Source of the DNA: a bacterium
GTDB taxonomy: Bacteria > Patescibacteria > ABY1 > BM507 > VMTK01
Reading direction: 5' to 3'
NCBI GenBank assembly: GCA_030641105.1
Contig: DAOWHZ010000025.1
Span: 1-15,468, forward strand
DNA: 15,468 nt
Shown here: positions 1,147 through 14,777 of the stretch, piece after piece
Numbering within the stretch: the first letter of the stretch is position 1
How the letters are laid out: every line of letters begins with the position of its first letter
Notes under the pieces: model-generated
The model's database searches: none
What the model was told of the DNA's origin: nothing
Seen by the model: only the letters and a program-made list of their open reading frames with translations
Translations under genes and position numbers: made by a program

Positions 1147-1299
1147 GGGGATGTAGCTCAGGCTGGGCAGAGCGACATAATGTTTGAGAGTTTGTTATTT
1201 TTTTCACTCTCCATAAAAATCAGAGATATTCACCGTCAGCTTGCGAGATAGTTGATTAAAATATTATGCAGGCCGGAGGTTCAAATCCTCCCATCTCCA
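1147..1299 (+). tRNA. tRNA-like gene (Ala-type acceptor) interrupted in the anticodon arm
   Basis: The acceptor stem GGGGATG (1147-1153) pairs with CATCTCC (1292-1298), with A1299 as discriminator. Position 3:70 is G:U, the hallmark of tRNA-Ala. The D arm is GCTC/GAGC (1156-1173). The T arm is GGAGG/CCTCC with loop TTCAAAT (1275-1291), and the variable loop is AGGCC (1270-1274). The anticodon arm should be 17 nt but spans 1175-1269, about 78 nt too long. Its base is a 6-bp stem, CATAAT (1176-1181) with ATTATG (1263-1268). Inside lies a hairpin GAGAGT/ACTCTC (1186-1191/1206-1211). Exact excision after G1182 to leave ATAT would read GAU (Ile), which conflicts with G3:U70. A possible Ala loop CTTGCGA (1240-1246) lies inside the insertion but has no stem. 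It may be an intron-bearing tRNA, a remnant of one, or a pseudogene. CCA is not encoded. Confidence 0.7.
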
Positions 1300-2600: not shown

Positions 2601-5600
2601 ATGATAAAACAAGGAGTAAAATTTGTTTTAATCCTGTTATTTATATGCGCAGGATTTTTTTGTTTTGGAAAAAATTGCTGGGCGGTTAGCGCTGGTGATG
2701 TGGTGATTAGCGAAATTCAAATTGGCGGGGATAGCGTTTACGATGAGTTTATAGAATTATATAATCCTACAGATGTGGAAATCGATTTAGAGGAGTGGGA
2801 CTTGAAGAGAAAAACAAGTAGCGGAAGTGAAAGTAATATGCTAAATAACATTGAAGGCATAATTCCAGCTTATGGATATTTTTTGATTGTTCCGCGCGCA
2901 CAATGCGGAGACAGTAGTGATAAAAATTGTTATAAGGGATTAGTTCCTGCTGACGATGAATATACAACAAAAAGTTATTTATCAAAAAATAATACAGTTT
3001 TATTATATGATAATAATGGAATTTTAATTGATAAAGTTGGATGGGGAGAAGCGGGCGACTTTGAAAGCGAAGTTATAATAGATAATCCGGAAAATAATCA
3101 GAGCATAGAAAGAATAAATATTAACGGCGTTATTCAAGACACGAATAACAATAAAAATGATTTTGTTTTGCGAGATAATCCATATCCGCAAAATTCAAAT
3201 AGTCTACCTGAACAACCGAGTGATGAGATTAGTAATGGTAATGGTGATGACAGTAATAATGGGATAGATGATGGCGAGGACGAAGAGGATAATGAGCAGC
3301 AAGGAGAACAGGAACAGGAAGAAGACGAAGATGTTGGTGAAGCACCAAGCAAAATTATTATTACAAATAAACTTGGTGATATTGTAATTAATGAATTTGT
3401 TAGTGATCCGGCAGATGAAGATGTGGAATGGATAGAATTATATAACACGACAAGTAAAGAAATTAATTTAGATGGCTGGACAATTAAAGAAGGCAGTGGC
3501 GCCAAGACAACTTTAGAAGGAATTTTGGCTGGCAGTGGAGAAGGTAAGTTTATGATTATAGAAAAACCAAAAGGCAATTTAAATAATAAAGGTGATATAA
3601 TTATTTTAAGAGATGATCACGGTACATTGATTGACCAAGTAACCTATGGTAATTGGGACGACGGTAATACTAATAATAATGCGCCAGTGACTGGTGATCC
3701 ATATAGTGTGGCGCGCAAGTTTGACGGGCAAAATAGTTTTAATAATGCTAATGATTTTGTTGTTACCACTACCTTAACCAAGGGCACAAGCAATATAATA
3801 ACTAAGACCGAGGAAGAACAGGAATTGGCTGACGAAATCAGCGCGAAGGAAAAAGCATTGTATGATTATAGTAATGACATAATTATTAGCGAAGTTTTTC
3901 CTAATCCGCTTGGCAGTGACAGCGAAGATGAATTTATTGAGTTGTATAATAAGAGCGAAAGGGATGTGAATTTGTTAGGATGGAGATTAGGGGATGAAAG
4001 TAAAAAGAAGTATAAAATCGCTAATTTAAGCGAATTTGAAGCAAGTACAGTGAATGCTATTATTAAAGCTGGTGGATATTTGGTAGTGTATCGCAGTGAA
4101 AGTAAAATTGCTTTGAATAATGGAAGTGATAGCGTAAAATTGTATCAGCCGTTGAAAGATGAGCCGTTACAGGTTGTTAAATATGAAAAGTCAATTGAGG
4201 GCTGGTCATATAATTTTGAAGGCGAAACGTCGACGTTTCGCCTTCAAAATTATAATTATGTTTGGAGTGAAATTGTAACGCCAGGAGCGGTTAATGAAAT
4301 AAAAACAATTAATCATCCGCCAATTGTGGATTTTGATTGCCCGGAAGAAATATTAGTTGGCGCGCCAACACTATTTGATAGTTCTGATACAGTTGATGAG
4401 GATGGAGATGAATTAAAATTCAGTTGGGATTTTGGAGATGGCTTTACTAATAAATTAGCAAATCCTGAACATACATTTTTTAAACAAGGCGCTTATACTG
4501 TGAAATTAACTGTGAGTGATGGGGAGAATGAGGTTGAGAAGGAGAAAATTGTGAAAGTGGTGAGTGATTTAAATATGGATGGTGCGGAAACTACGGGATT
4601 GCTTCGTCATTCCGTTCCGCTGTCGCTCCACTCCATTCCTCGCAATGACAATGTAGTAATTAATGAATTTTTGCCAAACCCGGAAGGCGCTGACGCAGAG
4701 GGAGAATTTATTGAATTATATAATCAAGGCAATGCCGATGTTAATTTAATAAACTGGAAAGTTGATGACAGTGAAGGAGGCAGTAAGCCATATAGTTTTG
4801 ATCTTGATTTGTGGCTTAACAGTGGAATGTATTATGTGCTGGACAGGGAAGAAAGCGGTTTGGCTTTAAATAATACCACGGATGCGGTTCGTTTGTTTAA
4901 TAATTTTAATGAGTTAATTGAGGAGATTGAATATGAAGCAGTGGTTGAGGGCGAAGCTTATGCGCGAGGTAAAAATGGTAAGTGGTTTTGGACAACTGTA
5001 ATAACTCCGGGTGAGGAAAATGTTATATCAGTTGCAGATAGTCGTGAATCAAAAGTAATTGTAAAATCAGCAAGTTATAGCAAAAATACTAAAAAAGTAA
5101 AGCAAATTGTTGAGACGACTTTAGAGAAAATAAGTGAATGTGAAGTTGGCGATTTAGTTAAAGTGGCTGGTATAGTAGCGGTTAAACCAGGCGTTTTAGG
5201 TTCGCAGTATTTTTACATTGTTGGCTCTGCAGGTATTCAAGTTTATAATTATAAGAAAGATTTTCCTAATCTAAAAGTTGGTGATTATATTGAAGTGCAG
5301 GGCGAATTAAGCGTTAGTTCTGGTGAGCTGCGGCTTAAAACCAAAATTCAAGATGATTTTAAAATTATTGAACATAGGGAGCCGCCAATTGCTAATGAAG
5401 CAAGTTGCGAGCAAGTTGATGAAAAATATGTCGGCCAATTAATTTCTGTGACTGGCGAAGTAGTTGAAAGAAAAAGTTCAATTGTTTACCTTGATGACGG
5501 CACTGATGAAGTTATTGTTTATCTTAAAAAATCAACTGGCATAAATCCAAAGTCCATTAAAGAAGGAGAAATAGTTGCTGTTACTGGTTTGGTTGGCAGG

Positions 5601-7819: not shown

Positions 7820-9823
7820 ATGCCAAAGAAGAAAAATAAATCCGCTATTAATTTTTCAATCAATAAGAATGGTCAACTAGAGCCAGAGCCATCTGATCAA
7901 GAAATTGATCAATTATTGGACTTAGCTAAAAATAAAAAATTTGAGCCAGGCATTTATAATTACTGTGATCGCTGGTGTGAAAAATGTTCAGATACTGAAA
8001 AGTGTTATATGTATGCTCAAAAACAATTAAAAAAAGACCTCACTCCCAGCCCCTCTCCTAAAACAGGAGAGGGGAGCGATGAAAAGGATAAAAATGATTT
8101 TATGTCTGAAGTAATGTATAGTTTAAAAACAACAAAGAAGTTAATTAAGACTGTTATGAAAAGAGATGGTTTTAATCCTGATGAAATTGACGAAAACATA
8201 GAAGAAAATGCCTGGGACAAGGATGCGCACAAACGTTATGACAATGTTGAATGCTTGAAATTGATAAATGATTATAGTGATGAAGCGCATAAATTTTTAG
8301 AAAAATATTTTACCAGTCAAGAGCAATACAAACAGCAATTTAATTTAGAGCTGAATCAGGATGATATTAAAAATGAGATAGAAACAATAAATTGGTATCA
8401 CACTTTTTTGCCAATAAAAGTTTGGCGCTGCTTATATGAAAGAGAAAGCATAGAAAAAGAAGAAGATAAAGAATTAAAAGAAATGGTCAAAGAAGGTTTG
8501 GAAAAATATTTTGTCTTAGTAGAAAAATGTTTTAATAAATCAAGGCAAGCTTTATCTGGTTTAGCGCAAAAAAGGCAGGATTATGGTGAAACAGCGGCAG
8601 ATTTGTTAAATAAATTTAATTTAGCTGAAATTAGTTTTAGGGAAGAATTTAATTTGCCCCAAGGTTATAATGTAATGCCGCCTAGTTTTAATAATGAGCA
8701 GATTGCTATAATGGAAAAATTTAATCAAAGTCCAGAGCAAGGATTAGAAATGGCTCTATCATATTTAGCAATTCATCCAAATGATAAAATAATCAACGGC
8801 GTTATTGGTGATATGTTCATTAATTTAGGCGAGTTTAATAAAGCGATTAAATATTTGGAAACCGCTGCTAGATTAAATCCTAATGAACATATTACGCATT
8901 TTCTTTGGGGTGTAGCTTTAGCTAAAACCGGTCGGTTTAATCAAGGTTTGGCCAAGCTGCAAAGAGCGCAGGCATTGCAGCCAGATGATTTAGAAATTAA
9001 AAGAAATATTGGCTGGATAACAGCTATGCGCGGCCGTTATAAAGATGACAAGCAGGAAATTGAAAAAGGTAGAAATATTTTAAAAGAGGTGGTAGAGCAG
9101 GAGCCGGAAAATGTTGTAGCAATGACTGATTTAGGCCAAAGTTATTTAATGGCGCATAATTTTGATATTGCGTTTGAATGGATGGAGCGAGCTATAAAAA
9201 CTGAACCAGATAATGAGTTTGTCAAGATGATTCATCAAGATGTAATTGAAATGCGTGAACAGTATCAGCAAGACAAAGGTTTTCAGGAATTTATTGCCAA
9301 GCAAAAAGTAGTGAAGGCCTATAGCGGTCCGCCAGCCAAAGATGATGATGAAATGGATGAACAGGTGGCTAAGCAGTTTGAAATAGAAGGCCTTATCAAT
9401 GAGCTGAACAGCGGCAATTTAAGCAAGGAAGAAATGGCCAAGGTAATGAAAAAACTGGAAGCCACTGGCATGGTCGGGCAAATTACAGCTATAACAGATC
9501 CTAATTCTTCAGCCGCCAAAGTAGCTACAGAATATATTGAATATCATCAAAAAGTAGCCAATGTGGAAGAGAAAAAAACAGCGGTTGAAATTGAAAAATT
9601 AATTGATAAATTATTTAACAGTAAATTGGATTTAGAGGAACAGAAAAAAATAATTTTAATTTTAGCTCATCAAGGCACAGAACAGTCCTTGGCTGCTTTG
9701 GAAAAATTTCAACAGCAATCCAAAGGTGAAATGGTAACTTGGCTGAAAATGGCGATTGATGAATGTCGGGCTTTTTTACAGTCTGACAAGGATGGGCCGG
9801 GCATGTTTTTTAGTAAAGTGTAG
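7820..9823 (+). CDS. TPR protein with N-terminal cysteine cluster
   Basis: 667 residues, no signal peptide or membrane helix, so probably cytoplasmic. Near the N terminus is YNYCDRWCEKCSDTEKC, with Cys49, 53, 56 and 62, a likely metal-binding cluster. A region with charged helices follows (100-300). Tetratricopeptide-like repeats lie at about 308-465, with typical GDMFINLGEFNKAIKYLETAARLNPN and LGQSYLMAHNFDIAFEWMERAIKTEPDN units. The C-terminal third is helical, possibly a HEAT-like region (LAHQGTEQSLAALEKF). TPRs mediate protein-protein contacts; the partner is unknown. A palindromic insertion encodes about residues 77-85 (SPSPKTGEG) in the linker after the Cys cluster. The start lacks a Shine-Dalgarno but has TAAACTT directly before ATG, as in the gene at 13103. 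Confidence 0.8.
   Translation: MPKKKNKSAINFSINKNGQLEPEPSDQEIDQLLDLAKNKKFEPGIYNYCDRWCEKCSDTEKCYMYAQKQLKKDLTPSPSPKTGEGSDEKDKNDFMSEVMYSLKTTKKLIKTVMKRDGFNPDEIDENIEENAWDKDAHKRYDNVECLKLINDYSDEAHKFLEKYFTSQEQYKQQFNLELNQDDIKNEIETINWYHTFLPIKVWRCLYERESIEKEEDKELKEMVKEGLEKYFVLVEKCFNKSRQALSGLAQKRQDYGETAADLLNKFNLAEISFREEFNLPQGYNVMPPSFNNEQIAIMEKFNQSPEQGLEMALSYLAIHPNDKIINGVIGDMFINLGEFNKAIKYLETAARLNPNEHITHFLWGVALAKTGRFNQGLAKLQRAQALQPDDLEIKRNIGWITAMRGRYKDDKQEIEKGRNILKEVVEQEPENVVAMTDLGQSYLMAHNFDIAFEWMERAIKTEPDNEFVKMIHQDVIEMREQYQQDKGFQEFIAKQKVVKAYSGPPAKDDDEMDEQVAKQFEIEGLINELNSGNLSKEEMAKVMKKLEATGMVGQITAITDPNSSAAKVATEYIEYHQKVANVEEKKTAVEIEKLIDKLFNSKLDLEEQKKIILILAHQGTEQSLAALEKFQQQSKGEMVTWLKMAIDECRAFLQSDKDGPGMFFSKV
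8050..8074. repeat. In-frame palindrome in the TPR gene
   Basis: CCCCTCTCCT (8050-8059) and AGGAGAGGGG (8065-8074) are perfect 10-base inverted arms around AAAAC. The encoded TPSPSPKTGEGS is Pro/Ser/Gly-rich and unlike the Lys/Asn/Asp-rich flanks. The frame stays open, and it sits in a linker between the cysteine cluster and the helical region. Confidence 0.85.
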
Positions 9824-10344: not shown

Positions 10345-12888
10345 ATGGCTAGACGAAAAAAAAGAAGATTTAAAAAAGATCCCTTGGACTATATTGCTCT
10401 GCCCAGATTAAATTTAAACCCTGATACTAAAAAGGGTATTTTTATTGTGTTGATTTTAGCATTAGGCGCCATTAGTGTGTTAAGCTTATTTGATTTAGCC
10501 GGTAATATAGGAATTTATTTAGCCAAAGCAATGATGCTCACTTTTGGCTGGGGCAAGTGGCTGTTTCCAATAATACTGCTAGCGTTGGGCTTTTTTCTTT
10601 ATAATGAAGATAAATATGAAATCAGGGGCACAAATTATTTAGGTTTATTTGTTTTTATTATTTCTTTTCACGGATTATTGCATTTATTTATTGAGCAAGA
10701 ACAATGGAAACAAGTGATTAGTACTGGTGAAGGCGGTGGTTATATTGGTTGGCTTGTATCTTTGGGTTTTATGAATATTATGGGTTTTTGGGCTGGCTTG
10801 ATTGTTTTAATTTGTCTGTTATTAATTTCTTTAATGCTAATGTTTAATACCAGTTTGTGGGCTTTAATAGGCAGTGAAAGCTGGTTAGCTAAATTATTTT
10901 ATCCTTTTAGTTTTGTTTATGCCAAAATTTTTAAACGAGATAAAGAAGATGAAGATGAAAGTGAAGATGAGGAAGATGAAGAAGATGATGATGAAGACGA
11001 GAGTGATGAGGATGAAGAAAATGAGGGTGAAGACGAGGGCGAGGAGGATGAGGAAGAGGAAGATGAACCCTCCTTCGCTAAAGCTACGGAGGGCGAGGCA
11101 AAATTTCATAGCCATAAGATTAAAGAAGCTATAATTTCCGAAGAACCATTGTGGCAGCCAACAAATATTAAAATTGATTTACCCTTAAGTTTGCTTAATG
11201 GCAAGGTTGGCAAGCCGACCAGCGGTGATATTAAAGCCAATACTTTGATTATTCAAAAAACTTTGGAAAATTTTGGCATTCCGGTGGAAATGGGAGAAGT
11301 CAGTGTCGGCCCAACAGTGACACAATATACATTAAGGCCGGCTGAAGGCGTTAAGCTGTCGCGCATTACTGCGTTAAACAATGATTTGTCTTTAGCCTTA
11401 GGCCTTCATCCTATCAGAATTGAGGCACCAATTCCCAATGAACAGCTAGTTGGCATTGAGGTGCCAAATAAAGCCAAGGCCATTGTTAGCTTAAAAGAAG
11501 TATTGTTGGCGCAAGATTTTAAAAATAAAAAAAGCAATTTAACTATTGCTTTAGGCAAGGATGTGGCTGGTAAATCCTGGTTAGATAATCTAAGCAGGAT
11601 GCCGCATTTGTTAGTGGCTGGCACAACTGGCGCTGGCAAATCCGTAATGCTTAATTCTATTATTGTGAGCTTGCTTTATCAAAATAATCCTGATGATTTG
11701 CGTTTTATCATGGTTGACCCCAAAAGAGTGGAACTGCCAAGGTATAACGGCATTCCTTATTTATTAACCCCGGTTATTACTGAAGTTGGCAAAACCATTA
11801 ATGCTTTAAAATGGTGCCTTAATGAGATGGATCGCCGTTTTGATGTTTTATCCAAATCCGGCAAAAGGAATATTGACAGCTATAACAAAAGCAGTCAATA
11901 CAAAATGCCCTATATTATTTTTATTATTGATGAGTTGGCTGATTTAATGGTGGCGGCGGCGCGCGATATTGAAGCAGGCGTGATTCGTTTAGCGCAAATG
12001 GCTCGGGCAGTAGGCATTCATTTAGTTTTAGCCACTCAACGTCCCAGTGTTGATGTGATTACCGGTTTAATTAAAGCTAACATGCCGGCGCGCATTGCTT
12101 TTTCAGTAGCTTCCAGTATTGATTCGCGCACTATCTTAGATTCACAAGGCGCGGAAAAATTATTAGGCAGAGGTGATATGCTTTTTATCACGGCAGAGAT
12201 GTCTAAACCAAAAAGGCTGCAAGGCGCCTTTGTCAGTGATCAAGAAATTAAAAAAATTGTTCACTATATTAAAGGCAAGGGTGAGCCGGATTACAAAGAA
12301 AGTATTTTAGAAAAACAAAAAGTTCATGGCATTGCCGGAGTTGGCTTAGACAGAGAAGAAGATGATGAATTATTTGAGGAAGCCAAAGAAGTAATTATTA
12401 ATGCAGGCAAAGCTTCAGCTTCATTGTTACAGCGCCGTTTGCGGGTTGGTTATGCCAGAGCCGCCCGTTTAATTGATTTACTTGAGGATGCTGGAGTTGT
12501 TGGGCCAGCGGATGGAGCTAAGCCGAGAGAGGTCTTGCTAAGTAGAGAGCAATATGATAATATGTTAAGCCAAGGGATTAGCGGCGTTAGTCTGCATGAT
12601 CAAGAGAAAGTAGAAGAGCCGGATGAATATTTAGATACGCCAATGGACGCTAATTTACGCCTGCCAGATAGCCTTGCATCAAGGCAGGCGGGCCAAGAAA
12701 CGCCAGAAGAAGAGGAGGATGAGGACGAGAATGGCGAAAATGAAGAAGATAATAATTTGGATGAAGAGGAGGAGGAGGAAGAGGAGGAGGAAGAGGAGGA
12801 GGAAGTCAAAAAAGAAGATGATAAAAAAGAGATTACTAAAGATATTAAAGAAGAGGATGATGAAGAAGGGAAATATTTTAGCAGATGA
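10345..12888 (+). CDS. ftsK: FtsK/SpoIIIE DNA translocase
   Basis: 847 residues. Hexameric septal ATPase that pumps chromosomal DNA during division. The N terminus is basic, followed by four membrane segments (about 31-50, 71-88, 98-115, 146-167). A highly acidic linker covers about 196-241. The motor holds Walker A GTTGAGKS at 426-433 and Walker B IIFIIDELADL with D529/E530. A C-terminal winged-helix gamma domain (about 679-735, SLLQRRLRVGYARAARLIDLLEDAG) would read orienting DNA motifs. Unusually, a very acidic tail follows (about 787-844), including 14 consecutive Glu. Two hairpin repeats are in frame: one ends the linker (residues 242-250, PSFAKATEG), the other precedes the acidic tail (772-782). 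No Shine-Dalgarno is present. Confidence 0.95.
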   Translation: MARRKKRRFKKDPLDYIALPRLNLNPDTKKGIFIVLILALGAISVLSLFDLAGNIGIYLAKAMMLTFGWGKWLFPIILLALGFFLYNEDKYEIRGTNYLGLFVFIISFHGLLHLFIEQEQWKQVISTGEGGGYIGWLVSLGFMNIMGFWAGLIVLICLLLISLMLMFNTSLWALIGSESWLAKLFYPFSFVYAKIFKRDKEDEDESEDEEDEEDDDEDESDEDEENEGEDEGEEDEEEEDEPSFAKATEGEAKFHSHKIKEAIISEEPLWQPTNIKIDLPLSLLNGKVGKPTSGDIKANTLIIQKTLENFGIPVEMGEVSVGPTVTQYTLRPAEGVKLSRITALNNDLSLALGLHPIRIEAPIPNEQLVGIEVPNKAKAIVSLKEVLLAQDFKNKKSNLTIALGKDVAGKSWLDNLSRMPHLLVAGTTGAGKSVMLNSIIVSLLYQNNPDDLRFIMVDPKRVELPRYNGIPYLLTPVITEVGKTINALKWCLNEMDRRFDVLSKSGKRNIDSYNKSSQYKMPYIIFIIDELADLMVAAARDIEAGVIRLAQMARAVGIHLVLATQRPSVDVITGLIKANMPARIAFSVASSIDSRTILDSQGAEKLLGRGDMLFITAEMSKPKRLQGAFVSDQEIKKIVHYIKGKGEPDYKESILEKQKVHGIAGVGLDREEDDELFEEAKEVIINAGKASASLLQRRLRVGYARAARLIDLLEDAGVVGPADGAKPREVLLSREQYDNMLSQGISGVSLHDQEKVEEPDEYLDTPMDANLRLPDSLASRQAGQETPEEEEDEDENGENEEDNNLDEEEEEEEEEEEEEEVKKEDDKKEITKDIKEEDDEEGKYFSR
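11068..11093 (+). repeat. 14-nt-loop hairpin element, copy E (inside ftsK)
   Basis: Stem CCCTCC (11068-11073), loop TTCGCTAAAGCTAC (14 nt), stem GGAGGG (11088-11093). The loop is identical to copy A beside tRNA-Gly, but the stem differs and is still fully paired. It encodes PSFAKATEG at the end of the acidic linker. The distal AA-plus-third-stem part seen in the tRNA-linked copies is absent. Confidence 0.85.
12658..12690. repeat. In-frame palindrome near the ftsK 3' end
   Basis: CGCCTGCC (12658-12665) and GGCAGGCG (12683-12690) are perfect inverted arms. An overlapping inner pair GCCTT/AAGGC (12671-12675/12681-12685) allows an alternative fold. It encodes RLPDSLASRQA, between the gamma domain and the acidic tail. 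It is unlike the 14-nt-loop family in sequence and spacing. Confidence 0.8.
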
Positions 12889-12900
12889 TTTAATATTAAA

Positions 12901-13028
12901 TTCCAAATAACAAATCCCAAATAACAAACAAATTTCAAATTCTAATGTCCAAAATTCCAATAACCAATCCCGAGCGCTCAAGATGGAATTTTGGACATTA
13001 GAATTTGTTTGGGATTTGTTATTTGGAA
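12901..13028. repeat. Large inverted repeat downstream of ftsK
   Basis: The 24 bases at 12936-12959 are the exact reverse complement of 12984-13007, and the 21 bases at 12901-12921 of 13008-13028. The left arm carries 14 extra bases (12922-12935). The loop holds the palindrome GAGCGCTC (12972-12979). The arms are built of repeated words such as CAAATAACAAA and TTCCAAAT. A 23-base stretch (12918-12940) recurs exactly at 14065-14087 in another spacer repeat. It could terminate or stabilise the ftsK mRNA, or be a non-autonomous mobile element. Confidence 0.9.
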
Positions 13029-13102
13029 TTTGGGATTTTATTTTTATAATTCTTGCAGAAAAATTTTTAAAATATATTAATTTTTAAATAATATTTAAAC
13101 TT

Positions 13103-13801: not shown

Positions 13802-13818
13802 ATATGAAAATACTTCAG

Positions 13819-13890
13819 AGCGGGTAACGGGAATTGGACCCGTGTCCTCAGCTTGGAAGGCTGATATAATAGCCACTATACGATACCCGC
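13819..13890 (-). tRNA. tRNA-Gly(UCC), with C at position 55
   Basis: Acceptor GCGGGTA/TACCCGC, discriminator U. The anticodon arm TCAGC-CTTCCAA-GCTGA reads UCC. The D arm is of the GTA type with a G:U closing pair. The T arm ACGGG/CCCGT has loop TCCAATT, so position 55, normally U (pseudouridine), is C. CCA is not encoded. Its 5' end overlaps hairpin copy A. Confidence 0.93.
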
Positions 13891-13920
13891 CTTCGCTAAA
13901 GCTACGGCGGGCAAGCCCGC
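13886..13920 (+). repeat. 14-nt-loop hairpin element, copy A
   Basis: Stem CCCGCC (13886-13891), loop TTCGCTAAAGCTAC, stem GGCGGG (13906-13911), then C, AA and a third stem part GCCCGC (13915-13920) that can re-pair with GCGGGC. The first arm is mostly the tRNA-Gly acceptor sequence. It is head-to-head with copy B across TAAATATTTA. Confidence 0.88.
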
Positions 13921-13929
13921 TAAATATTT

Positions 13930-13963
13930 ATGGCTTGCCATACAAAGCTTTAGCGAAGTATGG
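13930..13963 (-). repeat. 14-nt-loop hairpin element, copy B
   Basis: On the minus strand: stem CCATAC (13963-13958), loop TTCGCTAAAGCTTT, stem GTATGG (13943-13938), then C, AA and GCCAT (third stem part). The first three bases, CCA, follow the tRNA-Pro discriminator and provide its encoded CCA. Confidence 0.88.
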
Positions 13964-14037
13964 TCGGAGTGCCGGGACTCGAACCCGGGATCTCATGCTC
14001 CCAAAGCATGCGCCTTAGCCAACTAGGCCACACTCCG
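13964..14037 (-). tRNA. tRNA-Pro(UGG)
   Basis: Acceptor CGGAGTG/CACTCCG, discriminator A. D arm GCCT/AGGC. The anticodon arm CATGC-TTTGGGA-GCATG reads UGG. T arm CCGGG-TTCGAGT-CCCGG. CCA is encoded at 13961-13963, contributed by the abutting repeat copy B. Confidence 0.96.
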
Positions 14038-14039
14038 AA

Positions 14040-14174
14040 TTAAAAAATCCCAAATTCCAATTTTCAAATAACAAACAAATTTCAAATCCCAATAATTAAA
14101 ATTCCATATATTTTTGGTTATTGAAAATTTGGAATTTGTTTGGAAATTGATTTTTGAAATTTGGGATTTTTTAA
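14040..14174. repeat. Imperfect inverted repeat between tRNA-Pro and tRNA-Phe
   Basis: A 17-base arm starting TTAAAAAATCCC (14040-14056) is the exact reverse complement of 14158-14174. Inner sequence is loosely complementary (CCAATTTTC against GAAAATTTGG). It shares an exact 23-base stretch (14065-14087) with the repeat after ftsK. Confidence 0.85.
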
Positions 14175-14180
14175 TTATAG

Positions 14181-14252
14181 TGCCGAGGGTGAGAATCGAA
14201 CTCACGACACAAGGATTTTCAGTCCTTTGCTCTACCACTGAGCTACCTCGGC
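14181..14252 (-). tRNA. tRNA-Phe(GAA)
   Basis: Acceptor GCCGAGG/CCTCGGC, discriminator A. D arm GCTC/GAGC with a 7-base loop. The anticodon arm AAGGA-CTGAAAA-TCCTT reads GAA. T arm GTGAG-TTCGATT-CTCAC. CCA is not encoded. Its 5' end overlaps hairpin copy C by two bases. Confidence 0.96.
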
Positions 14253-14288
14253 TCTACTACGCTAAAGCTTCGTAGAGCAAGCTTCTAC
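14251..14288 (+). repeat. 14-nt-loop hairpin element, copy C
   Basis: Stem GCTCTAC (14251-14257), loop TACGCTAAAGCTTC (14 nt), stem GTAGAGC (14272-14278), then AA and GCTTCTAC (14281-14288), a third stem copy with one extra T. It begins on the last two bases of the tRNA-Phe gene. Confidence 0.88.
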
Positions 14289-14319
14289 TATTCTTTAAAA
14301 TTTTATAAAACAAATTTTG

Positions 14320-14556
14320 CTAAATTAACCTTTTTTTGAAAAAGGCATTACCAGAACCAGTTTTAAGGTACTGTTCAAATTTAGCGGCAATACATTTATT
14401 TCTAAAGACTCCCACCCTCCAAAGCTTAACTGGTAGTTTTGATTTAGTATAATGAACTAATCCATTATTGTGTTCACTGATTCTTTTTTTAATATTATGT
14501 GTTAACCCAACATAAAATGTTTTGTCAGAACATAAGAAAATATATACAAAATGCAT
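14320..14556 (-). CDS. GIY-YIG domain protein (YhbQ/UPF0213-like)
   Basis: 78 residues, essentially one minimal GIY-YIG domain. The first motif is VYIFLCSD (VYI for GIY), followed by FYVG (for YIG). Arg in KKRISEHN and Glu in AAKFEQYLKTGSG occupy the catalytic Arg and Glu positions. Free-standing domains of this size are widespread in bacteria; cellular roles are mostly unproven, with DNA repair or nucleic-acid cleavage proposed. It sits inside the tRNA cluster on the same strand, between initiator tRNA and tRNA-Phe, flanked by hairpin repeats. A selfish-endonuclease link to those repeats is tempting but unsupported. No Shine-Dalgarno is visible. Confidence 0.85.
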   Translation of the reverse strand: MHFVYIFLCSDKTFYVGLTHNIKKRISEHNNGLVHYTKSKLPVKLWRVGVFRNKCIAAKFEQYLKTGSGNAFFKKRLI

Positions 14557-14580
14557 ATTTTATTTTTACTTCGGTTGTAT

Positions 14581-14627
14581 GCTTGTAATCCGAAGCTTTA
14601 GCCCACTTATGTTGAAACTTCAGTGGG
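14581..14627. repeat. Compound repeat: truncated copy F interrupted by copy G
   Basis: Copy F (minus orientation) keeps GCTTG, TAATCC and the loop part GAAGCTTTAGC (14581-14602), then stops. At 14602 begins copy G in plus orientation. It has stem CCCACT (14602-14607), a 14-nt loop TATGTTGAAACTTC and stem AGTGGG (14622-14627). The G loop differs from copy C at four positions, all transitions, and keeps the 14-nt length. Confidence 0.75.
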
Positions 14628-14670
14628 TGAACTCCGGCACAAAACAAGATAATTCTTGGCAAGCTATTTA

Positions 14671-14704
14671 ATGGCTTGCCATCCGAAGCTTTAGCGTAGG
14701 ATGG
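14671..14704 (-). repeat. 14-nt-loop hairpin element, copy D
   Basis: On the minus strand: stem CCATCC (14704-14699), loop TACGCTAAAGCTTC, stem GGATGG (14684-14679), then C, AA and GCCAT, followed by TAAATA as after copy A. The leading CCA is the encoded CCA of the initiator tRNA. Confidence 0.88.
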
Positions 14705-14777
14705 TTGCGGGAGGGGGATTCGAACCCCCGTCCTCCAGGTTATGGGCCTGGCGAGCTGCCAACTGCTCTATCCCGCT
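14705..14777 (-). tRNA. Initiator tRNA-Met (CAU), with C33
   Basis: Positions 1:72 are A and A, unpaired as in bacterial initiators, then GCGGGA/TCCCGC. The D stem GAGC/GCTC has the initiator-type A11:U24 pair. The anticodon arm CCAGG-CCCATAA-CCTGG reads CAU, but position 33 is C instead of U. Only two of the usual three G:C pairs at 29-31/39-41 remain (A:U at 29:41). T arm GGGGG-TTCGAAT-CCCCC. CCA is encoded at 14702-14704 by repeat copy D. Confidence 0.93.

Follow-up and report, generated by a model that had tools for sequence, protein, structure and literature searches.

A REP-like, CTTG-tagged hairpin family of Patescibacteria genomes, with copies at tRNA gene ends and in frame within genes

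The window, by which we mean the whole 15,468-nt stretch of Patescibacteria DNA analysed here, carries four tRNA genes on the minus strand, tRNA-Gly(TCC) (13818–13890), tRNA-Pro(TGG) (13961–14037), tRNA-Phe(GAA) (14180–14252) and tRNA-Met(CAT) (14702–14777), together with an ftsK gene (ORF 10345–12888) and a GIY-YIG gene (14320–14556). The identity of FtsK was confirmed by Pfam, and its relatives are labelled mostly Candidatus Falkowbacteria, Parcubacteria or Patescibacteria. An original prediction had reported six hairpins in the window (A–E and G), and a sequence check and folds returned their coordinates, stems and 14-nt loop just as described. Four of them lie directly against the end of a tRNA gene, a placement that had gone unnoticed: A and C lie at 5′ ends, and B and D at 3′ CCA ends. 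Rfam recovered only tRNA and 16S rRNA in the window, and no family over the hairpins at the gathering threshold.

Copy A (13886–13915, plus strand) is composed of arm 1 (CCCGCC, 13886–13891), the loop (13892–13905), arm 2 (13906–13911) and the tetranucleotide CAAG (13912–13915), followed by a repeat of the arm-1 start (CCCGC, 13916–13920); its arm 1 shares 5 nt with the 5′ end of tRNA-Gly. Copy B (13934–13963, minus strand) has arm 1 (CCATAC) at 13963–13958, the loop at 13957–13944, arm 2 at 13943–13938, CAAG at 13937–13934 and the repeat CCATA at 13933–13929, and its arm-1 start is the CCA end of tRNA-Pro. Copy D (14675–14704, minus strand) is built likewise, with arm 1 (CCATCC) at 14704–14699, the loop at 14698–14685, arm 2 at 14684–14679, CAAG at 14678–14675 and the repeat CCAT at 14674–14671, its arm-1 start being the CCA end of tRNA-Met. 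Copy C (14252–14281, plus strand) adjoins the 5′ end of tRNA-Phe with a 1-nt overlap and is a 30-nt unit, CTCTAC-loop-GTAGAG-CAAG, the stem of which reaches 7 bp (14251–14278); folded as the 30-nt unit without the seventh pair, it prefers a different 5-bp hairpin. The AA and further part-copy of the first arm predicted behind the second arm of A–D are present in A, B and D, as CAAG and then 4–5 nt of the arm-1 start, but in C the repeat is only approximate (CTTCTAC, 14282–14288); E and G have no such repeat. Copy E (11068–11097, plus strand) lies in frame in ftsK, where it carries the tag CGAG and encodes PSFAKATEGE within an acidic linker. Copy G (14602–14627, plus strand) is a diverged form, CCCACT-TATGTTGAAACTTC-AGTGGG, that lacks the CAAG tag and differs from the consensus loop at four positions, all of them transitions, as first reported. 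It is a probable relic, a status made less sure by a degenerate copy that overlaps it on the minus strand (loop match at 14592–14605 with two mismatches, then GGATTA-CAAG on that strand).

With up to two mismatches allowed, the loop pattern matches the window seven times, compared with 0.47 matches expected from shuffles, and none of 200 shuffles reaches seven; copy G, being too diverged, is not one of these matches, and one of them (8912–8925) lies outside the six hairpins. The folding energies of single copies are ordinary (z −0.5 to −1.3), and the case for the hairpin rests on recurrence and covariation.

Several other features of the window were seen along the way. A tRNA at 1147–1299 (plus strand), found by Rfam and missed by ARAGORN, has about 80 extra bases in its anticodon arm, which may be an intron or another insertion. 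A perfect 23-bp inverted repeat without a spacer (4209–4254) lies inside a 1,077-aa lamin-tail/PKD ORF; it may have arisen through misassembly or be a further palindromic insert. Two related inverted repeats, each with arms of roughly 50 nt and AAATCCCAAAT-type words, located after ftsK (12892–13044) and in the gap between tRNA-Pro and tRNA-Phe (14038–14176), perhaps belong to a second, longer palindromic repeat family. Finally, a palindromic in-frame stretch, CGCCTGCC...GGCAGGCGG, was noted by eye near the ftsK end (12660–12697).

The unit of the family is 30 nt: a 6-nt arm 1, the 14-nt loop TWCGCYAARGCTWC, a 6-nt arm 2 and CAAG, which on the other strand places CTTG 5′ of the hairpin. Within the loop, 3 bp form an inner stem closed by an AA turn. 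Of 379 sampled Patescibacteria genomes, 120 contain the exact loop, with 430 matches compared with 13 for the reversed pattern and up to 21 in one genome (G162); 44 of the 120 genomes have a single copy, and part of these single matches may be chance. Among genomes of FtsK relatives, for which 50 of 68 FtsK loci were used, it occurs in 26 of 50, with 103 copies, at most 17 per genome and no match to the reversed pattern. These 103 matches, together with four exact copies from the window and one from a further locus (L042), make up a set of 108 distinct copies, in which the conserved block runs from position −6 of the loop to ten positions after it (YCCNCC, loop, GGN′GGR, CAAG). A wider set of 151 copies allowed one mismatch and the GCCAAGGC loop variant (controls gave 8); it leaves out copies with fewer than 30 nt before the loop or fewer than 45 nt after it to the end of the locus, and includes four from stretches fetched for tRNAs or gene context, three of which abut tRNAs. 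In this set the inner loop pair is T-A in 127 copies, C-G in 15, C/A in 7 and T/G in 2, a variation indicating that the loop holds a small stem, as originally seen. The tag, read in 192 copies, is CAAG in 75, TAAA in 20, CAGG in 11 and CGAG in 9. Separately, an 18-nt core pattern was found in 51 viral-contig stretches (L343–L393), five of them with two copies, which are possibly host DNA, and two other short repeats in one genome (L130:3582–3646 and L130:5068–5220 of G025) have many matches in another (G026).

The stems were first described as always perfectly paired and freely varying. Perfect pairing is true of the six window copies, but in the wider family all six positions are paired in only 43 of 151 copies and five or six in 97 (6.7 and 31.9, respectively, with shuffled partners), at least one position being unpaired in the remaining 108; nor do the arms vary freely, as most stems stay near YCCNCC/GGN′GGR. 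In the 108-copy set, pairing exceeds that of shuffled partners at each of positions 1–6 and is at or below chance from position 7. When one element per genome is taken (64 genomes), pairing at positions 1–6 is 0.71–0.80 compared with 0.31–0.69 (z 2.7–7.5), with no covariation at positions 7–10. All four Watson–Crick pair types are present at positions 2–5. The idea that a held loop and a covarying stem reflect a structure that is selected or copied is supported by this covariation and by the many copies in related genomes, in which we find a wide excess of copies and covarying stems rather than chance numbers or stems that do not pair.

The copies are distributed over several kinds of site. 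Of the 151, 45 lie in frame in ORFs of at least 120 aa, 24 lie otherwise in ORFs, 22 abut tRNAs and 60 are elsewhere; in the 108-copy set, 43 lie in ORFs of at least 120 aa, and 32 of these 43 share one sense phase. In-frame copies encode a decapeptide, for example PSFAKATEGK or SSYAKASEDK. The host genes include polA (twice), gatB, pheS, trmD (twice), a leuS/ileS-like gene, gltX, murC, queA, a Xer-type recombinase gene and ftsK, identified by eye from the flanking residues, with GatB confirmed by the Pfam domains of homologs.

The hairpin appears to be mobile, for which the gatB site provides good support. The gatB genes of G006 and G012 are 75% identical and differ by a single 30-base gap, which is the element; in G006, arm 1 opens with CCA, which recurs after CAAG, and a third genome (G003) carries the element at the same place as G006. 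For a wider sample, 80 of 120 listed GatB proteins matched the loop text pattern and entered a tree, and the other 40 were dropped. An element-like insert, called by a text pattern and with DNA tied to the entry for one of the 13 proteins, is present at one place in 13 of these 80 homologs. It accounts for 12 changes on the tree, which was built without the insert segment, had a bootstrap that had not settled and counts changes rather than gains; at least ten of the changes are forced by well-supported branches. The insert is not clustered on the tree (12 changes compared with a shuffled mean of 12.2), and the site is one of repeated gain, or of gain and loss. Two copies are nested in older copies, adding 30 nt each (L160 and L131; by eye).

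Other candidates for an empty site were tried and set aside. In PheS, TrmD and an IleRS-like gene, ortholog lengths differ (for PheS and TrmD in the same loops) and other inserts are present, leaving no clean junction; the tRNA-Ile of related genomes, considered as a base-exact empty site, has contexts that are too different. The same protein loops in relatives (L202, L210, L248 and P0005) hold other small inserts of the PTGQAG, PARHASQLAGIAG, PAPLLKGG and SPAAVEARHG types, and these loops may thus admit several families of short repeats. In the IleRS-like gene, three loci (L271, L274 and L284) have much longer inserts where G025 has a repeat-rich segment; by eye, one of these inserts resembles a hydrolase and another a phosphatase.

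A feature of the copies at tRNA genes is how precisely they are placed. Of the 22 copies within 2 nt of a tRNA (three of them from a stretch fetched for its tRNAs), 20 overlap the tRNA by 1–6 nt; in these 20, arm 1 faces the tRNA, whether at its 5′ or its 3′ end, and the other two turn arm 2 toward it. In loci not chosen for tRNAs (78 tRNAs), arm 1 faces the tRNA in six of six copies at 3′ ends and in ten of 13 at 5′ ends; three of the six at 3′ ends start with CCA, and in four of the six the loop starts 6 nt beyond the discriminator base. A pattern joining a T-loop word to the element loop, with the loop-to-discriminator distance left free, gave 57 matches in 33 of 379 genomes (control 1), and a pattern joining the element loop to a D-arm word gave seven matches in seven genomes (control 0), one of which (L342) is not tRNA-like. 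Among 30 loci fetched from the T-loop pattern, 29 have a recognised tRNA at the match, with CCA after the discriminator in 26 of the 29 (by eye), and in pattern-chosen loci the offset of the loop start from the discriminator base is 6 nt in 19 and 7 nt in eight of 31 cases, 27 in all. In a census of tRNAs, 158 of 181 were classified, 68 of these 158 coming from tRNA-plus-element-pattern loci in which orientation is thereby fixed; copies turned the other way numbered one at 3′ ends and three at 5′ ends. For 3′ ends, the support from orientation and from CCA leans on pattern-chosen loci.

Stems at tRNA ends also differ from those elsewhere. All of the outer four pairs are formed in 19 of 22 tRNA copies compared with 42 of 129 others, the other 87 lacking at least one, and a direct repeat of at least 4 nt after the tag is present in 11 of 22 compared with six of 129. 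Ten tRNA copies of three related genomes (G023, G025 and G026) have in common an A·C mismatch at pair 2, and in nine of the ten the outer four pairs match (CCCC/GGGG or CCAC/GTGG). Because the mismatch is kept while the outer pairs match, the stem–site match at tRNA ends probably arose with insertion and not through general repair of the stem.

We interpret these elements, with a probability of about 0.6, as a family of non-autonomous, REP-like, CTTG-tagged mobile hairpins of about 30 nt that insert as a unit at short CC-rich targets and are stem-matched at tRNA ends. We infer that movement would be single-stranded and arm-guided. A trans-acting enzyme would cut and join the hairpin as single-stranded DNA; arm 2, complementary to the target, would help to choose short CC-rich targets, such that the hairpin would span target and element; and copies would persist where harm is small, at tRNA ends, in intergenic DNA and in protein loops. 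Pairing between arm 2 and target would explain both why differing stems are paired and why the arm-1 start recurs after CAAG at tRNA sites; against such a match, the gatB insertion of G006 has CCAT facing CGGA. IS200/IS605 elements are not known to make a target duplication, and a target duplication is indistinguishable from sequence alone from an arm that matches its target. The arm may select the site or be a copy of it: an arm 1 common to several tRNA copies within one genome, together with the gatB case that lacks a match, speaks for selection by an arm that is inherited, whereas the eight differing arm pairs of the eight G002 copies favour copying from the site. That the second arm is a guide for, or a copy of, its landing site, with each stem formed partly with host DNA, is a tentative and rather doubtful proposal.

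Y1 transposases are a lead, and may be the mobiliser of the hairpin; the GIY-YIG gene of the window would be another conceivable candidate. Proteins with a Y1_Tnp match are found in 178 of 379 genomes, and in 75 of 120 element-bearing compared with 103 of 259 element-free genomes (p = 4 × 10⁻⁵, with kinship ignored). As a demonstrated mobiliser, a RAYT or Y1 transposase was rejected, the association being loose: in element-bearing genomes an element lies within about 1.5 kb of two of 20 RAYT-like loci, and seven genomes with at least five copies have no Y1_Tnp match, although these genomes are possibly incomplete. In this the family may differ from RAYT systems, with no element near 18 of the 20 RAYT-like genes and element-rich genomes without a match.

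Of the alternatives to a mobile hairpin inserted as a unit, one has the element bringing only a core (about CC-loop-GG plus CAAG), with snap-back or template switching generating arm 2 on the target and the stem thus built anew at each site. It would suit the 11 different outer-four arms found among the 22 tRNA-end copies, 19 of which pair, the CTAATT/GATTAG stem at tRNA-Leu that differs from the consensus, the eight G002 copies with seven different arm 1 sequences, and the A·C mismatch that persists at pair 2 while the outer four pairs match. We nevertheless consider it unlikely: arm 2 of the G006 gatB copy (GGCGGA) is the arm usual in the family and does not complement the target CCA, the arm 1 CCACTGC occurs three times in G201, twice in G345 and twice in G287, as inheritance predicts, and one consensus fits most non-tRNA arms. 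Alternatively, the hairpin could be selected as RNA, for processing, protection or termination at tRNA ends, with compensatory mutation keeping its stems paired. Exact placement at tRNA ends and covariation are consistent with such a role, as is CCA being encoded in 31 of 39 tRNAs with a 3′ element compared with 41 of 119 for all others. However, the CCA difference is not significant against same-locus tRNAs (21/31, p = 0.29), a comparison that also leaves the element unsupported as a supplier of CCA to tRNAs, and CCA is found in only three of six cases in loci not chosen for tRNAs. Moreover, 129 of the 151 copies lie in genes or elsewhere, the same orientation is found in copies at 5′ ends, whose arm 1 overlaps the acceptor strand, and the A·C mismatch stands unrepaired in ten copies, which together make RNA selection a quite unlikely explanation.

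Quasipalindrome correction, in which template switching during replication perfects stems and target matching plays no part, is a known mutational process that yields variable yet paired stems. Here, however, most of the 151 copies are imperfect (108), and copies from three related genomes retain the A·C mismatch next to the loop while their outer pairs match, so that we regard it as very unlikely. Chance or base composition, that is, CC/GG-rich stems around a common word, would fit the strong C/G bias of the stem columns but is hardly credible, as shuffles that keep this bias are far exceeded and the exact loop far outnumbers its reversed pattern.

The mobile hairpin, if our reading of it is right, matters in several ways. 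Patescibacteria genomes are small, yet about a third of those sampled hold the exact loop, with copies inside core-enzyme-like genes, and such in-gene copies affect annotation and protein alignments. The family offers a compact model of how the smallest repeats, which encode nothing, are able to move and of what chooses their targets, and the gatB site and tRNA ends supply filled and empty sites for testing. If an arm does match its target, a 30-nt element would have a target-matched mode of insertion, and tRNA gene ends would be a safe harbour across a bacterial phylum.

Among titles and abstract openings, a coverage that most subscription papers fall outside, we recognised no description of this hairpin. 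The original claim that no described element has this form does not hold in the light of published REP elements (PMC3733652, in the parts consulted). Rickettsia palindromic elements (RPEs), which that paper cites, are in-frame palindromes tolerated in many protein genes; the present family also inserts in frame in protein genes, but on a comparison by description only, RPE-1 is longer and belongs to another lineage. MITEs differ in that the hairpin has no target duplication of fixed length, its terminal direct repeat ranging from 0 to 6 nt. Elhai in 2008 reportedly described the small dispersed repeats of cyanobacteria as very small mobile repeats without a known enzyme, and, compared by description only, these resemble the hairpin in being a very small mobile repeat.

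Enzymes of the IS200/IS605 group are guided by a tetranucleotide located at the hairpin foot (PMC6006769, in part), and the other strand of the present element, 5′-CTTG-hairpin-3′, has this guide-tetranucleotide layout, which REP elements share. For REPINs and their RAYT enzymes, single-strand hairpins are described as likely intermediates and a target-pairing step has been proposed for REPINs (extracts of PMC6006769 and PMC3116915), but the mobile unit here is a single 30-nt hairpin, as in gatB and, by eye, in the two nested cases, and not an inverted doublet. REP elements, as presented in the sections of PMC3733652 drawn on here, are palindromes of 20–40 bp that bear an unpaired tetranucleotide tag at one end; their stems show complementary changes, some copies lie inside genes, including those for DNA polymerase I and tRNA synthetases, and some of their loops have GC/GC or GGC/GCC ends set apart from the stem. 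The 30-nt hairpin resembles the GTAG and CGTC REPs of those sections in falling within this size range, in being dispersed, in having a tetranucleotide at one end, in its complementary stem changes and in-gene copies, and in loop ends of that kind. It differs in holding its loop while the stem varies, in its exact tRNA-end placement, in the repeated hits at the gatB site and in having most in-gene copies in one frame, and its tag is CTTG (CAAG) rather than GTAG (GTGG) or CGTC. Because the tag differs and the element is not a doublet, we describe the hairpin as REP-like and file it in neither the GTAG nor the CGTC super-family. The 30-nt REP-like hairpin is both real and widespread, and it has a new tag, CTTG, as well as copies at tRNA ends and in-frame copies within genes.
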